Shown in pieces: positions 46,028-52,410 of a DNA stretch of 64,000 bases (the first letter of the stretch is position 1; every line of letters starts with the position of its first letter). The position numbers and the translations under genes are program-made. The stretch covers positions 4,076,322 to 4,140,321 of the forward strand of contig NZ_CP036273.1 in assembly GCF_007747215.1 (NCBI RefSeq). The letters run 5' to 3'. The stretch is from Urbifossiella limnaea. Its GTDB lineage: Bacteria; Planctomycetota; Planctomycetia; Gemmatales; Gemmataceae. Below the pieces are notes generated by a model. The model was not told the origin of the DNA. It worked only from the letters and a program-made list of their open reading frames with translations, and did no database searches.

Positions 46028-47641
46028 CTACTGCCTGGCGAGCCGGTACTTCACGGCGGCTCCGACGAAGTCGCGGAACAGCGGGTGCGGCTTCGTCGGC
46101 TTCGATTTGAACTCGGGGTGGCACTGCACCGCCACGAACCACGGGTGCCCCGGCAGCTCCAGCGCCTCCACCAGCGTGCCGTCCGGGCTCGTGCCGCTGA
46201 ACACCAGCCCGGCCGCGCTCAGCCGGTCGCGGTACAGGTTGTTCACCTCGTACCGGTGGCGGTGCCGCTCGTGGACCACGTCCGCCCCGTAGGCCTCCCG
46301 CGCCTTCGAGCCTGCGGCGAGGTGGCACGCGTACGACCCAACCCGCTGCGTCCCGCCGACGTACTCGATCCCCTCCTGCTCGCTCATCAGGCACACCACC
46401 GGGTGGGCGCACGCCTTGTCGAACTCGGTGCTGTTCGCGCCGTCGAGGCCTGCGACGTGGCGGGCGTACTCGATCGTCGCGCACTGGAGTCCGAGGCAGA
46501 TGCCGAAGAACGGCAGCCCCGTCTCGCGGGCGTGGCGGATCGCGTCGATCTTCCCCTCGATGCCGCGCTTGTCGAAGCCCCCCGGCACGAGCAGGCCGTC
46601 CACGCCGGCGAGCATCTTCGCCGCCCCCTCCTTGTGCAGCTCCTCCGAGTCGATCGTGGTGACCTCGACCGTCACCTGGTTGGCAATGCCGGCGTGGTCC
46701 AGCGACTCGTACACGCTCTTGTACGCGTCGCGGTGCGTCACGTACTTGCCGACGAAGCCGATCTTCACCGTCGGTCGCGGCTGCTTCATCCGGGCCAGCA
46801 TGTCGCGCCAGTCGTCGATCCGCAGCGGCTGCGTCAGTTCGAGCCCGAGCTTGGAGGCCACGAGCTCGTCCACTTTCTTGTCGGCGAACCCGAGGGGCAC
46901 CTCGTAGATGCTGAACTCCTTGTCCTTCTCCTCGATCACCGCCCGCGGCTCGACGTTGCAGAACAGGGCGATCTTGTCGATGTCGCCCGGCGGAATCGTC
47001 CGCTCCGTGCGGCACACCAGCACGTCCGGCTGGATGCCGATCTTCCGCAACTCCATGACGCTGTGCTGCGTTGGCTTCGTCTTCAGCTCCTTCGCCGCCT
47101 TCAGGTACGGCACCAGCGTGAGGTGAACGAACAGGCAGTTCTGCTTCCCCACGTCGAACGCGAACTGGCGGATCGCCTCGAAGAACGGCATCCCCTCGAT
47201 GTCGCCGACGGTGCCGCCGATCTCGGTGATGACCACGTCCACGTCCGGCGTCGCCAGCCGGGCGATGCAGTGCTTGATCTCGTTCGTGACGTGCGGGATG
47301 ACCTGGACCGTCTTCCCCTTGTACTTCCCCTGCCGCTCCTTCCGCAGGATCGTCTCGTAGATGCGGCCGGTGGTCAGGTTGCAGCCGCGGTCGAGCGACA
47401 CGTCCGTGAACCGCTCGTAGTGGCCGAGGTCGAGGTCGGTCTCGGCCCCGTCGTCGAGGACGTACACCTCGCCGTGCTGGTACGGGCTCATCGTGCCCGG
47501 GTCGACGTTGAGGTACGGGTCGAGCTTCTGCATCCGAATCTTGAAGCCGCGGCGCTCGAGCAGCAGCCCGATCGACGCCGAGGTGAGTCCCTTGCCGAGC
47601 GAACTGACAACGCCGCCGGTGACGAAAATGTGTTTGGCCAT
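46028..47641 (-). CDS. pyrG: CTP synthase
   Basis: Makes CTP from UTP, ATP and glutamine in the cytoplasm. The 537 residues have both halves of the enzyme. The synthetase domain begins '[24 protein letters not shown]' (ATP loop) with '[20 protein letters not shown]'-like sequence at about 140-160 (here '[11 protein letters not shown]'). The glutamine amidotransferase domain has '[11 protein letters not shown]', the nucleophile Cys in '[11 protein letters not shown]', and C-terminal '[13 protein letters not shown]' with the catalytic His and Glu. Length is normal (about 530-550). The gene is followed downstream on the same strand by nothing within 28 nt of the convergent kinase gene; kdsB lies upstream of it on the same strand, with a hairpin between, so the two may be separate transcripts. 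Confidence 0.97.
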
Positions 47642-47675
47642 GTGGTGAACGCCCCCGGTGGTCGGTGAACGGAGC

Positions 47676-47699
47676 GGGGCCGGCGCTGCCGCCGGCCCC
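47676..47699 (-). terminator. Hairpin between kdsB and pyrG
   Basis: GGGGCCGGC (47676-47684) and its exact complement at 47691-47699 form a 9-bp stem with a 6-nt loop, in the 137-bp gap between the two leftward genes. It would end part of the kdsB transcript; no T-tract. Confidence 0.5.
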
Positions 47700-47778
47700 G
47701 TCAGTCACTCCTACCCCCACTCTATCGCCCGACGGGCCGCGGTCCAATGGCGGTGCCGCCGGATCACGCCGCCACCGC

Positions 47779-48540
47779 TCACGCGGCCCGGCGCGACCGC
47801 CTCTCTCCGTAGGCCCGGACGAAGGCCGCGTAGTCGGCCGGCGTGTCCACGCCGCGGTGGGCCTGCGCCACCCGCCCGACCTGGATCGTCCCGCCGGCCC
47901 CGAGCACCCGCAGCTGTTCGAGCTTCTCCGCCTCTTCCAGCGGGTGCGGCGGCAGCCCGGCCAGCCGCAGCAGGAACGCGCGCCGGTAGGCGTACACGCC
48001 GAGGTGCTGGAGGTATCGCGGCGGCCGCGCAGCCAGGTCCGGCTCGCCGTCGCGCGTCATCGGGATCGGGCTGCGCGAGAAGTACAGCGCGCGGCCGCGG
48101 TCGTCGCACACCACCTTCACCACGTTCGGGCTGAGGTACGATTCGCGGTCCGGCAGCGGCGTCGCCAGCGTCGCCATGTCGGAGCCCGGGTCGGCGACGA
48201 GCAGCCCGACCAGCTGGTCGATCGCCGCCGGCTCCAGCTGCGGCTCGTCGCCCTGCACGTTCACCACCACGTCGGCCCCGATGCCCCGCGCCACCTCGGC
48301 CACGCGGTCGGTGCCGGACGGGTGGTCCGCGCGGGTCATCACGACGTTGCCCCCGAAGCCCTCGACCGCGGCGCGGATGCGCTCGTCGTCGGTGGCGACG
48401 ATAACCAGTGACGCCGTCTTGGCCGCGGCGGCCTGCTCGTAGACGTGCTGGATGAGGTACTTGCCGGTCTCGCGGAGGAGCGGCTTCCCCGGCAGCCGCG
48501 ACGACGCGAACCGGGCGGGAATGACGACGGCGACGCGCAT
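47779..48540 (-). CDS. kdsB: 3-deoxy-manno-octulosonate cytidylyltransferase (CMP-KDO synthetase)
   Basis: Couples KDO to CMP, activating it for lipopolysaccharide core synthesis. It uses CTP, whose synthase is encoded next to it. The 253 residues have the family motifs: 'VAVVIPARFASSRLPGKPLL' at the N-terminus (CTP loop), 'VVMTRADHPSGTDRVAEVA', 'VNVQGDEPQLEPAAIDQL', 'LYFSRSPIPMTRDG' and 'QHLGVYAYRRAFLL', ending near 'EKLEQLRVL' and 'GVDTPADY'. The ATG at 48540 has GGAGG 9 nt upstream. Its presence supports a Gram-negative outer membrane with LPS. Confidence 0.95.
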   Translation of the reverse strand: MRVAVVIPARFASSRLPGKPLLRETGKYLIQHVYEQAAAAKTASLVIVATDDERIRAAVEGFGGNVVMTRADHPSGTDRVAEVARGIGADVVVNVQGDEPQLEPAAIDQLVGLLVADPGSDMATLATPLPDRESYLSPNVVKVVCDDRGRALYFSRSPIPMTRDGEPDLAARPPRYLQHLGVYAYRRAFLLRLAGLPPHPLEEAEKLEQLRVLGAGGTIQVGRVAQAHRGVDTPADYAAFVRAYGERRSRRAA

Positions 48541-48579
48541 CGGGGCCGACCTCCGTGTCGGGAACAGGTAGGGCGGCTG

Positions 48580-48609
48580 ATTACACCGTAGAAGTGAAAC
48601 GAGTTGCAA
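48580..48609 (-). promoter_or_regulatory. Promoter for kdsB
   Basis: On the minus strand TTGCAA (48609-48604) and TGTAAT (48585-48580) are 18 nt apart, and the -10 box ends 39 nt before the start at 48540. The gap is AT-richer than its surroundings. Confidence 0.45.
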
Positions 48610-48640
48610 GCCCACCCCGGGTGCCGGGTGACTCGCCCGG

Positions 48641-49024
48641 TTAGCGCGGCTTGGGTCCGGTGCCGTTCTGAAGGAACGCCGACACCCGCTGCTTCAGACG
48701 GCGGTGGGCCGGGCTGCTGCCGTTGCACAGCTGCAGAGCGTCTCGGACGTTCAGGCCCGGGTCGGGGAACGGCAGCTTCGCCAGCGCGTCGTCCACCGAC
48801 CCGGTCAACGTGTAGCGCGTGTCGAAGCCCGGGGCCACGTCGATGGAAAAGCCCCGAAGGGTCTCCAGGTCGCGGTAGAAGCCGCGCACGTCGAGCTTGA
48901 GGCGGGTGAGGAGGAGGCGGCGCGACTGCGGCCCGTCGCCGAGGAGCGTGAGGAGCTTGTACAGTCGGGCGGCGCGCTGGGCCGTCAGTGCGGCGGTCGG
49001 CGGGCCGACCTTCTTCCTCGCCAT
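48641..49024 (-). CDS. Small winged-helix (HTH) regulator
   Basis: A 127-residue protein. Residues 17-75 look like a winged HTH of the DeoR/WYL-regulator type ('AARLYKLLTLLGDGPQSRRLLLTRLKLDVRGFYRDLETLRGFSIDV'), in which the recognition helix is 'DVRGFYRDLETL'. The C-terminal WYL sensor domain of the longer relatives is absent; instead there is about 50 residues of unassigned sequence ('YTLTGSVDDALAKLPFPDPGLNVRDALQLC'). It would bind DNA without a large sensor. The ATG at 49024 has GGAGGAG just upstream, so the start is secure; the frame is open to 49159. Targets unknown; leftward like its neighbours. Confidence 0.78.
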   Translation of the reverse strand: MARKKVGPPTAALTAQRAARLYKLLTLLGDGPQSRRLLLTRLKLDVRGFYRDLETLRGFSIDVAPGFDTRYTLTGSVDDALAKLPFPDPGLNVRDALQLCNGSSPAHRRLKQRVSAFLQNGTGPKPR

Positions 49025-49168
49025 GGCTCCTCCGGCCGTCCCCGGGCGCCCCGCCTCCCTGCGGGTGACCAGGCCGCGGGCCGGGGGAGAGATCGTCCCG
49101 CGGGCGGCGCCGGTCGAAACATTGGACGTGAGTCTAGAGACGCCCGCGGGGGAAAGCAAGCACGCAAA

Positions 49169-50410
49169 TCACCGCGCCCACCGGTATACCGTTAGCCCGG
49201 TCAGGTCGCGGACGAACAAGTCGTCGCCGGCGGCCGCGAGGTGCGCCCACGTCTCGGACGCGGCCACTTTCGTGCTGCCGAGCGGCTCGAACTCGCGCGG
49301 ATTGGCCTTCACCAGGAACAGCGTGCCGCGGCTGTCCAGGCCCAGCAGCTTGTCCCGGTTGGCGATCAGGCTCCAGTAGTCGCTGAACCGCTCCTCGGTC
49401 CGCCACGCCTCTTTCCCGGCCGCCAGGTCGAAGCACGCCAGCCGCCGGTCGCGGCCGAGGAGGTAGGCGTGGCCGCCGACCACGACCGGGCTCGTCATGT
49501 GGCCCTCGTACTTGACCGACCAGCCGTCGCGGGCCGCGAACCCTTCGCTGTTCGCCGTCACGCGGAACACCTGCGTCGTGCCCTCGTAGGTGCTCGTGAA
49601 CACCCCGTCCGGCGCGACCGGCTGCGGCGTCAGGATGTTCATGCCGCGGAACGCCGGGATCGTTCGCGACCACAGGACGCGGCCGTCGGCCGGGTCCACG
49701 CCGGCCATCTTCGTGCGTGTCTGCACGAGGAGTTGGTCGCGGCCGTCGAGCTTGGCCAGCACCGGCGAGGAAAACGCCGAGCCCATCATGCCGCCGCCGT
49801 CGGTGAGCGACCGCCACTTCACCTTGCCGGTAGCCTTGTCCACCTTCGCCAGCCCGCCGCCGGCCTGCACGTACACGCCGTCCGGCGCGACGAGCGGCGA
49901 GCAGACGAACCCGAAGTCGGGGGGTGAGGTGCCGTACTCCTTCACGAAGTCGAGGCGCCACCGCTCCTTGCCGCTGGCGGTGTCCAGCGCCACGAGCACG
50001 TCGCGGATGCCGGCCACGTACAGGGTGTCGCCGTCAAGGGCCGGCGTGGAGCGGACCCAGCTGCCGTTTCGGGCGGCGAAGAACGGCACCGTCAGCGAGC
50101 CGTCCCACTTCGCCTGCCACTTCTGCTTCCCGGTGGCGCGGTCGAACGCCGTCACCACCTCGACCTTCTTGTCGACCGTGGCCGTGGTGAAGACCGAATC
50201 GGCCGAAACGATCGGCCCCGAGTAGCTCGGCCCGAGGTCGTCGGCGCGCCACAGCTTCTGGAGGCTCGCGTCGGTGAGGCGGTCGGGCCACGCCGGGCCG
50301 GTGAACACGCCGTCGCGGGTCGGGCCGCGCCACTGCGGCCAGGTGGTCGGTTCGCCGGCGAAAACGGGTGCGGCCGCGAGCGCGGCCGCCAGGAGGACGG
50401 GACGGGTCAT
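49169..50410 (-). CDS. Exported PQQ-type beta-propeller protein
   Basis: A 413-residue protein with a signal peptide (about 1-18, 'LLAAALAAAPVFAGE'). It is a PQQ-like (quinoprotein alcohol dehydrogenase-like) propeller: 'WPQWRGPTRDGV' near the start, followed by repeats such as 'VVTAFDRATGKQKWQAKW', 'LVALDTASGKERWRLD' and 'LACFDLAAGKEAWRTE'. These resemble BamB-type or outer-membrane-assembly propellers as well as quinoproteins, but the catalytic residues for PQQ-alcohol oxidation are not evident. It likely binds other envelope proteins. GGAG lies 7 nt before the ATG at 50410. It is 17 nt after the sigma factor gene on the same strand, so the two are probably cotranscribed. Confidence 0.85.
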   Translation of the reverse strand: MTRPVLLAAALAAAPVFAGEPTTWPQWRGPTRDGVFTGPAWPDRLTDASLQKLWRADDLGPSYSGPIVSADSVFTTATVDKKVEVVTAFDRATGKQKWQAKWDGSLTVPFFAARNGSWVRSTPALDGDTLYVAGIRDVLVALDTASGKERWRLDFVKEYGTSPPDFGFVCSPLVAPDGVYVQAGGGLAKVDKATGKVKWRSLTDGGGMMGSAFSSPVLAKLDGRDQLLVQTRTKMAGVDPADGRVLWSRTIPAFRGMNILTPQPVAPDGVFTSTYEGTTQVFRVTANSEGFAARDGWSVKYEGHMTSPVVVGGHAYLLGRDRRLACFDLAAGKEAWRTEERFSDYWSLIANRDKLLGLDSRGTLFLVKANPREFEPLGSTKVAASETWAHLAAAGDDLFVRDLTGLTVYRWAR

Positions 50411-50427
50411 CGGTACTCTCCGGGGGG

Positions 50428-51201
50428 CTACGAGAGGGCGCGGCGGAGTTTGTCGAGCGCCTCGGCCTGGACCTGCCGGACGCGTTCCTTGGACAGACCA
50501 ACTGCCCGACCGACGCTCGCCAGCGTCGGGGCGTGGCCGTCGGCGGAGAACCGGTGCGCCAGAATCCGCTTCTCGCGCTCGGTCAGCAATGGGTGGTCGT
50601 CGCGGAGGTACTCGTCGAGGCGGAGGCTCCCGGACGACGCGAGTTGGTCGCCGCTCGGCCGGCCGCCCGGGTCGCCGTCGGGGAGGGCGTCGAGCGACAT
50701 GGCGCGGGCCAGCCAGTCGGACGCGAGCCGCTGCGACAGCCGGGACAACGCGCGCACGATGCAGGTGTAGGCGTACGTGCTGAACCTCACGTCGAGCCAC
50801 GGGTTGAACGCGGCGACCGCCTGGATGAGGACGACGTGGCAGTCGCCGACCAGGTCGTCCGCCCGGTTCGACACGGACATCCGCCGCCGGACGGCGCGGT
50901 AGACGAGCTTGCGGTTGCCGAGGACGATGCGGTCGCGGAGGGCGAGATAGACGCCGTGCCAGCGCATCCGACCGCCGGCCGTGCGGGCGGTGTGCATCCG
51001 GTAGGCGGCGTAGTGCATCCGCCGGGCGTGGTCGCGGGTCACGTCGTCTGGCATGTACCGCGCCTCAAAATCGCCGGCGGCGTCGAGTGCGGGGCGGGCG
51101 GCGTACAACTCGTCGGCGCCCGGCGCGTCGAACGACGGGTGGCGGACGTACCCGGGTAGCGCGTCCAGGCGGGAAACACGGCGGGTGGCGGAGATGGTCA
51201 T
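50428..51201 (-). CDS. Sigma-70 family RNA polymerase sigma factor
   Basis: A 257-residue sigma factor larger than ECF types. Regions 2.1-2.4 are seen around 'KLVYRAVRRRMSVSNRADDLVGDCHVVLIQAVAAFNPWLDVRFSTYAYTCIVRALSRL' (region 2.3 with FSTYAY). Region 4 HTH is at the C-terminus ('LTEREKRILAHRF' ... 'TLASVGRAVGLSKERVRQVQAEALDKLR'). The polar N-terminal 75 residues resemble a short region 1.2. Region 2.4, the -10-recognition helix, ends in 'CIVRALSR' instead of WWIRQAI, so its promoters probably differ from the vegetative type. It is divergent from a CarH-like regulator with 276 bp between, and a good promoter lies there. Confidence 0.9.
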   Translation of the reverse strand: MTISATRRVSRLDALPGYVRHPSFDAPGADELYAARPALDAAGDFEARYMPDDVTRDHARRMHYAAYRMHTARTAGGRMRWHGVYLALRDRIVLGNRKLVYRAVRRRMSVSNRADDLVGDCHVVLIQAVAAFNPWLDVRFSTYAYTCIVRALSRLSQRLASDWLARAMSLDALPDGDPGGRPSGDQLASSGSLRLDEYLRDDHPLLTEREKRILAHRFSADGHAPTLASVGRAVGLSKERVRQVQAEALDKLRRALS

Positions 51202-51338
51202 GGCACGCTCCGTGAGGGCGGCTTGTGGACGATTCGAACGTTTTGCCGCGGCCCGTCATTACCTAAACCGGCCGATTTCGGCCCAATCACACACTCAGCA
51301 ACGGATCACCGCTGACAGAAACGACCAAATCGTTCATT

Positions 51339-51367
51339 AGTATCGACCGGAACCCCGCCGGTGTCAA
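51339..51367 (-). promoter_or_regulatory. Strong promoter for the sigma factor gene
   Basis: On the minus strand TTGACA (51367-51362, a full -35 match) is followed after exactly 17 nt by GATACT (51344-51339, 4 of 6). Transcription would start near 51330, giving a leader of about 130 nt. AACGA and TCGTT (51320-51324, 51330-51334) form a short inverted repeat over the start site, a possible operator. A weaker plus-strand TATAGT (51423-51428) may serve the CarH-like gene. Confidence 0.6.
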
Positions 51368-51477
51368 GGGTGGAAATCGGACGAATTCGCCGCCCGATGT
51401 GCCGTGTGGCCCCGGAGGCGGCTATAGTTGGGGTGCCGAAGCTCTGCCCGCGACGCCCTGGAGACTGCGCGAAACGC

Positions 51478-52410
51478 ATGAATCGTCCACATTCCTCCGC
51501 CGAGCCGCCGGACTCTTCGGGGTCGCGGTACGTCAGCACCGCGGAGGCGGCCGTGGCCCTCGGCGTCAGCGTCACCACCGTCAAGCGGTGGGTGGACGAC
51601 GGCGTCATCCCTGCGCACCGTACCGTCGGCAAGCACCGCAAGCTGCTCGTCGCCGACCTCTACCGGCTCGTCCGCGACGGCGCCCTGCCGCAGGCGGACC
51701 TCGGCCGGCTCCTTGGAAAGGCCGCGACGGACAACGACCCGGAGGTCGTTTATCGCCGGCTTCTCGAAGCGGTCCGCACCGGCGACCTGAATGTCATCTC
51801 GTTGCTGATCCCCGCGGCGTACCGGTCCGGCATCTCGGTCAAGACGATGGCGGACGGCGTGTTCGCGCCGCTGATGCGGCAGGTCGGCCACGAGTGGGAG
51901 GCGGGCCGGTTAGAGGTGATTGACGAGCACCGCGTCACGCAGGCGTGCGTCGGCGCGCTGTACGCCCTGGCCGCGGAGCTCCGGCCGACCGCGGGGGCCG
52001 ACCGGCCGGTCGCCGTCGGCGGGGCGCCGGAGCACGATCACTACGTGCTGCCGACGCTGCTGGCACAGCTGACGCTGCTCGAAGCCGGGTGGGATGCGGT
52101 GAACCTCGGCCCGCACACGCCGATGAGCGCGTTCCGCACCGCCCTCGACGACCTGCGGCCGGCGCTGGTTTGGGTGTCGGCCACGCACGTCACCGACCCG
52201 GCGACGTTTCTGGCCGAGTTCAACGCCTTCTCGCGCGAGGCCGAGGAGCGTGGAGTCGCCGTCGCGGTCGGCGGGCAGGCGCTGACGGAAGGGCTGCGGC
52301 GCCAGATGCGTTACACGTCGTTCGGCGACGGGCTTGGTCACCTGGCCGCGTTCGCCCGCACTCTCCACCCGCAGGCGCGGCCGCCGCGCCGCGGCCGGCC
52401 CGCCTCCTGA
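51478..52410 (+). CDS. CarH/LitR-like cobalamin-binding transcriptional regulator
   Basis: A 310-residue regulator with three parts. An HTH of the excisionase/MerR type (about 18-62: '[38 protein letters not shown]'). A helical B12-capping domain (about 85-165) with the CarH signature W140-x9-E150-H151. A B12-binding Rossmann-type domain (about 175-295) in which '[32 protein letters not shown]' parallels the CarH cobalamin motif, with His188 the likely lower ligand and 'LGPHTP' matching 'LGPDTP'. Members use adenosylcobalamin to sense light and leave DNA when photolysed; some lack cobalamin use. The ATG at 51478 lacks a nearby strong ribosome site (GGAG lies 14 nt upstream). It is divergent from the sigma factor. 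Light or B12 sensing is inference. Confidence 0.85.

Follow-up and report, generated by a model that had tools for sequence, protein, structure and literature searches.

Our analysis strongly supports the idea that a CarH/LitR-like regulator gates the gene of a sigma factor at this locus, because the pairing of the two genes is conserved and because a conserved box lies on the sigma promoter and occurs also at sigma genes that have no regulator beside them. In its parts the locus falls within the LitR/CarH-like superfamily, and as a circuit it is akin to LitR-LitS of Streptomyces. Judging from sequence comparisons, we consider it likely that the regulator is a repressor responding to light or photo-oxidative stress, which would sit on 9-bp repeats and gate the sigma factor, and that the sigma factor would in turn switch on a protective regulon. 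The features concerned are located as follows in the window, i.e., the whole 64-kb stretch of DNA that was analysed.

49169..50413, minus strand: PQQ_2-type beta-propeller gene, about 14 bp after the sigma factor gene and on the same strand
50428..51201, minus strand: gene of a sigma-70 family factor of 257 aa (Pfam, NCBIfam, alignment)
51226..51243, minus strand: putative operator box 2, AAACGTTCG-AATCGTCCA, in the sigma leader (25.3 bits, perfect match)
51319..51336, plus strand: putative operator box 1, AAACGACCA-AATCGTTCA, starting 2 nt past the -10 element, over the predicted sigma start site
51339..51367, minus strand: sigma promoter TTGACA-N17-GATACT, reading toward the sigma gene
51472..51489, plus strand: putative operator box 3, AAACGCATG-AATCGTCCA, overlapping the regulator ATG (15.8 bits)
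51478..52410, plus strand: regulator gene, 310 aa, ATG at 51478
Regulator aa 18-61: BldC/excisionase-type HTH (Pfam)
Regulator aa 92-164: four-helix B12-binding_2 domain (Pfam)
Regulator about aa 175-299: B12-type Rossmann domain (AF2 model, fold matches)
51895..51930, plus strand: codons of the capping motif W140-x9-E150-H151, which with G137 gives GxxW and EH (alignment)
52036..52053, plus strand: B12 motif segment D187-H188-Y189-x2-P192 (alignment)

The regulator, the divergent sigma factor and the putative operator

The regulator has the layout of the LitR/CarH-like superfamily, namely a MerR/BldC-type HTH with B12-binding_2 and Rossmann domains. Pfam recognises the HTH as HTH_17 (46 bits against a cut-off of 27) and the four-helix domain as B12-binding_2 (38.5 bits against 23); the Rossmann half stays under the Pfam cut-off, yet it is clear in the AF2 model (pLDDT 88.6). 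The fold of this model matches that of CtMerR, a proven B12 photoreceptor (8jbs/8jbt, Z 25 over 220 residues; PMC11796333), other matches being photocobilins (Z 23), TtCarH (Z 20) and the SCHIC domain of AppA (Z 19), and BldC is among the nearest solved HTHs to that of the regulator. The NCBIfam CarH equivalog is not reached (59.3 bits against a cut-off of 400). A longer frame beginning with GTG at 51361 was rejected as the start of the regulator: it lies too far upstream, and the homologs begin at the MNRP start, which corresponds to 51478.

The divergent sigma factor and the promoter facing it, both pointed out in an earlier note on this DNA, are borne out by our data. In the protein, region 2 spans aa 96-154 and region 4, of the Sigma70_r4 type, spans aa 206-253; region 3 was not detected in it, and it passes the TIGR02937 model of the sigma70-ECF superfamily (55 against 42.9). 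The promoter pattern TTGACA-N17-GATACT was found once against 0.1 expected, and its TTGAC -35 element is kept in most aligned relatives. The N-terminal extension of about 90 aa carries the motif Y-V-x-H-P-S-F, and an aromatic/aliphatic-x-H-P-x-F motif is common to the sigma factors of Gemmataceae-type loci and several others; such an H-P-x-F-like motif precedes region 2 in the sigma factor described here and in those of loci L104, L106 and L155. It is possibly a contact site for a regulator or for RNA polymerase.

The relatives that we compared come from 30 contigs and from 73 of 294 Planctomycetota genomes. A divergent sigma gene lies within 900 bp of the regulator in 35 of the 90 relatives, among them 11 of the 60 loci of the phylum survey set. 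The 35 take in nearly all of the Gemmataceae-type loci, nine survey loci from other families of the same class, and two whose family belongs elsewhere in the phylum. Close relatives of the PQQ-propeller gene (46-72% identity) adjoin the regulator in some 22 loci, their arrangement varying: in Gemmataceae the gene follows the sigma gene, and in L102, L103, L108, L109 and L112 it stands immediately behind the regulator. In L102, where the sigma gene is divergent, the PQQ-propeller, amine oxidase, DUF1365 and CFA genes come after the regulator. The PQQ_2 beta-propeller protein looks like a part of the response. Beyond this gene, at 46028-49159, come pyrG, kdsB and a small HTH-type gene, whose synteny with the module in several Gemmataceae is probably mere conserved gene order.

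In an alignment of 19 Gemmataceae-type intergenic regions we found one element to be conserved, AAACGTCCA-AAACGTCCA, which repeats directly and in tandem with a period of 9 bp. The matrix built from it included the box at 51319 among its training sites, and the boxes at 51226 and 51472 were left out; the three boxes are all among the top four sites of the 64 kb, and when the intergenic region was shuffled 1000 times with its dinucleotides preserved, no shuffle matched the observed top score. A search of the 7.8-Mb genome gave only five sites with no more than one mismatch; three of these are at the regulator/sigma locus, and the only two perfect sites both lie in the regulator-sigma intergenic region. 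Box 3 overlaps the regulator ATG, which may explain the conserved MNRP N-terminus. One of the five sites, at 50197-50214, is a weaker one of 17 bits that falls within the coding sequence of the PQQ gene and may be due to chance.

The earlier note had placed a short inverted repeat, AACGACCAAATCGTT, over the sigma start site. Its position over the predicted start site holds good; its inverted form does not, since a 9-bp direct repeat is present in all 19 aligned loci and the palindromic look is peculiar to the copy at this locus. In the 60 loci outside the training set, we counted 55 direct repeats of period 9 within the 26 kb around the regulator versus 9 in 586 kb elsewhere, and near the regulator other periods are found 0 to 6 times and inverted or everted forms 0 to 2 times. 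An inverted-repeat operator was therefore rejected, being neither conserved nor enriched in the test loci, and the 11-bp period of CarH operators showed no enrichment in these 60 loci either. A detectable box near the regulator is missing in 24 of the 60 survey loci. The candidate operator thus has the BldC-type pattern of 9-bp head-to-tail direct repeats, and the locus as a whole has the LitR-LitS-type layout, a regulator divergent from a sigma gene with a candidate site on the sigma promoter, as suggested by conservation.

The sensor pocket and the cobalt-ligand position

CarH proteins are defined by two motifs, both of which are required: W-x9-EH, and D/E-x-H-x2-G/P-x41-SxT/V-x22-27-GG, the His of which is the lower axial cobalt ligand (PMC9304148, PMC8156234). 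The capping signature noted earlier at residues 140-151 is present in the regulator as W140, E150 and H151. The B12 motif reads D187-H188-Y189-V-L-P192-x41-S234-A-T236...G265-G266 and is intact except that Tyr189 (codon 52042-52044) replaces the cobalt-ligand His. The earlier note had proposed His188 as the ligand, and this proposal has to be abandoned: His188 is located one residue earlier, H204 of CtMerR aligns with Tyr189 in a gapless stretch (PEGDLHEIA in CtMerR, PEHDHYVLP in the regulator), and H177 of TtCarH falls on Tyr189 when aligned through the B12 motif. The spacing of the motif and the variability of the position, where some Gemmataceae-type loci have Gln or Leu and Pro is usual elsewhere, likewise rule His188 out. 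The published light signature consists of GxxW, EH, GxxH and GxxxP (PMC11796333); the regulator has three of these four, with GxxxP provided by G211 and P215, and reads H-D-H-Y in place of GxxH.

This replacement extends over the phylum. Among 90 planctomycete relatives Tyr occupies the ligand column 69 times, His 6 times and some other residue 15 times; 60 of the relatives have EH as the cap and 26 have ER, the ER being found in Pirellulales-type rows. In the tree, TtCarH, CtMerR and two survey rows, all four with His, split with a support of 100/95 from the other 88, 69 of which have Tyr, in a tree whose bootstrap is not fully settled and whose relatives were gathered with a profile of the regulator's own family. 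Because the axial His is Tyr across the phylum, the regulator is not a CarH by the published definition and light signature, as far as its sequence tells, and the period of the candidate operator likewise sets it apart from CarH. The missing cobalt ligand makes direct light sensing by the regulator doubtful, and direct B12 photosensing is unlikely given the usual His-on chemistry. Two relatives, L019 and L028, have lost W, EH and the ligand His and kept the HTH, so that their sensor pocket looks degenerate; L115 (genome G108) carries a tandem pair of family regulators, the second of which (aligned as L062b) is without most of the pocket residues.

The box across genomes and the photo-oxidative gene set

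In 95 genomes of the family there are 59 perfect sites, of which 27 immediately precede the regulator; these 27 are spread over 24 of the 52 genomes with a regulator. About 32 perfect sites lie away from the regulator, compared with 30 for a reversed-pattern control. Since the remote sites equal this background, the direct regulon in Gemmataceae appears to be the regulator/sigma locus alone; a dispersed direct regulon in the genome studied here was rejected for the same reason and in view of its mere five sites with at most one mismatch. The light genes do not adjoin the box in Gemmataceae.

The picture is broader in the phylum. The strict box AAWCGTTCAAAWCGTTCA has 29 exact copies in 294 Planctomycetota genomes and none for the reversed control, and 27 of the 29 adjoin regulator, sigma, fasciclin, FolE/photolyase or amine oxidase/DUF1365/CFA (furan-fatty-acid) genes. 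Fasciclin genes are the commonest carriers in Planctomycetota outside Gemmataceae, accounting for 15 of the 29 boxes, usually with no regulator in the locus (L168-L170, L173, L178-L181, L183-L187, L191 and L192). Five boxes are at sigma genes, four of these (L167, L174, L177 and L189) with no regulator in the locus; two are at FolE, regulator and photolyase genes, one at regulator and amine oxidase/DUF1365 genes, three at regulator, CFA and TIGR01777 epimerase genes, and one at a regulator alone. The boxes in L182 and L188 have no recognised target among the genes tested. In most of the sigma, FolE and amine-oxidase cases the box lies 2-10 nt past the -10 element of a TTGAC-type promoter, a position expected to block initiation, as for a repressor. 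A sigma-specific promoter at the fasciclin genes (GTGGTCA...TCTACAAA upstream of the box) was also considered and discarded, as its three genomes belong to one genus and are too related.

The gene neighbourhood was assessed independently. Within about 5 kb of the 60 survey regulators we counted DUF1365 12 times, amine oxidase 12, CFA 11, photolyase 8 and FolE 6 times, and at least one of these genes is near 24 of the 60; the counts are raw ones for low-copy genes, without a random-locus baseline. The singlet-oxygen regulon of Rhodobacter contains the same functions, represented by phrA, cfaS, RSP_1090/1091 (UfaO/UfaD), the fasciclin RSP_1409, folE2 and the sigma factor RpoHII (PMC7074977, PMC7380195). 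A link of the regulator to light or photo-oxidative stress is therefore supported by the predicted regulon in other planctomycetes, the evidence stemming mostly from families other than Gemmataceae. In the genome studied here DUF1365 is absent, which rules out a DUF1365 operon, and the evidence for a photolyase is weak.

The proposed circuit, its alternatives and known systems

We infer the binding by the regulator, the repression, the signal and the sigma regulon in the following form. The regulator would bind the tandem 9-bp direct repeats head to tail, in the fashion of BldC. In the uninduced state it would cover both its own start codon and the point where transcription from the sigma promoter starts, and the sigma gene, and probably also the co-oriented PQQ-propeller gene, would be off. 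Release of the regulator would follow a signal in its CarH-like sensor domain, for which light or photo-oxidative stress is the likeliest candidate, after which the sigma factor would be made and the protective regulon switched on.

Two other readings concern the input of the circuit; both are compatible with sigma gating, thus the probabilities that we give them are not exclusive of it. One could argue that the regulator is a true CarH, in which Tyr189 does not prevent the binding of AdoCbl (base-on, five-coordinate, or by way of His188 or His186 in Gemmataceae) and whose tetramer dissociates when light breaks the Co-C bond. The Rossmann/helix fold is like that of CtMerR, GxxW, EH and GxxxP are kept in an otherwise intact B12 motif, and AdoCbl could be available, as the genome encodes a PduO-type adenosyltransferase (a BtuR-type one was not found in it). 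However, 69 of the 90 relatives have Tyr for the axial His and others have S, A, F, D, G, N or T, the residue at the position of His188 varies, the EH cap becomes ER in Pirellulales-type rows, and an Arg at the ligand position is taken to leave too little room for AdoCbl (PMC11796333). We therefore judge this reading unlikely. It is credible, if somewhat short of probable, that the regulator is a B12-independent repressor with a CarH-like fold, whose input is a partner protein or a ligand such as heme or a porphyrin, as modelled on CarA with CarS, class II LitR with its LOV protein and the SCHIC domain of AppA. The SCHIC domain, which binds heme, is a fold neighbour (Z 19), and the cobalt ligand is lost. 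Class II LitR acts through a LOV partner (PMC9758184). Against this reading, the Ado-capping W and E are conserved nearly everywhere and are hard to explain without an adenosyl-type ligand, and no LOV- or CarS-like partner gene conserved beside the regulator was found. Between the two, a non-canonical ligand or partner is favoured over true CarH chemistry.

A nutritional sensor, which would respond to the level of B12 and not to light, could be proposed from the B12-type domain and the adenosyltransferase, but we hold it to be quite improbable, as the neighbour and box genes are those of photo-oxidative protection and not of B12 synthesis or transport. It is hardly conceivable that the two genes stand head to head by accident and that the regulator works elsewhere: although 55 of the 90 relatives have no adjacent sigma gene, a conserved box that is near-unique to the locus lies over the sigma promoter, and the box is found also at sigma genes without an adjacent regulator.

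The preferred reading, a repressor on 9-bp repeats that gates a sigma factor, combines traits of several known systems. With CarH (Thermus, Bacillus, Myxococcus) and CtMerR (Chloracidobacterium) the regulator shares the N-terminal HTH, the four-helix and Rossmann B12 domains, W-x9-EH, GxxxP, the motif D/E-x-[ ]-x2-G/P-x41-SxT-GG and a direct-repeat operator (here a candidate one) over a promoter. It differs from both in Tyr189 for the cobalt-ligand His and in its predicted target, a sigma factor; its HTH is nearer to those of CtMerR, BldC and excisionase than to that of CarH, the operators of which consist of 11-bp nAnnTnnACAn repeats (PMC8156234), as opposed to the 9-bp AAACGTCCA here. BldC has the same type of HTH and binds 9-bp repeats head to tail (PMC5859096), AATTCGGAC as compared to AATCGTTCA here, but it is a regulator of development in Streptomyces and lacks a sensor domain. 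Class II LitR proteins (PplR/PmlR2 of Pseudomonas) are B12-independent members of the family that repress photolyase, folE and ufaM-type genes; in contrast to our regulator, which has both halves in the model, they are without the Rossmann half, and they use TGTACA-N12-TGTACA. The gene set of photolyase, CFA/furan-fatty-acid, fasciclin, GTP cyclohydrolase and second-tier sigma genes is shared with Rhodobacter RpoE-ChrR (with RpoHII), which is run by an alternative sigma factor and an anti-sigma factor instead of a CarH-like putative repressor.

The LitR-LitS light circuit of Streptomyces, with which the earlier note had compared the locus, likewise has a CarH/LitR-type regulator controlling a sigma gene that relays the response. 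LitS is of the ECF type and drives carotenoid genes, none of which were found near the locus; the sigma factor here is of another family and the axial His is absent from the regulator. The part of the comparison that concerns sigma gating by a CarH/LitR-like regulator is upheld, and the B12 photoreceptor with His188 is not. LitR-LitS is a fair analogy, but in Streptomyces light-activated LitR promotes the transcription of litS (PMC12705666), which differs from simple repression.

In a search of literature accessible without subscription, no paper joining CarH, Planctomycetes and a sigma factor was found. One may extend the scheme, in a way that we regard as speculative and rather doubtful, to Tyr-type B12-fold light sensors throughout the phylum, which would hold cobalamin differently or bind another tetrapyrrole and act on BldC-type 9-bp operators, with one dedicated sigma factor in Gemmataceae. 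Light sensing by planctomycetes is little documented, and a concrete and testable regulator, operator and gene set are now proposed for it. The Tyr in place of His raises the question of whether a B12 fold senses light without an axial His or whether its ligand has changed. In this proposal CarH-like sensing and BldC-like DNA binding would be joined to a photo-oxidative gene set known from Rhodobacter.
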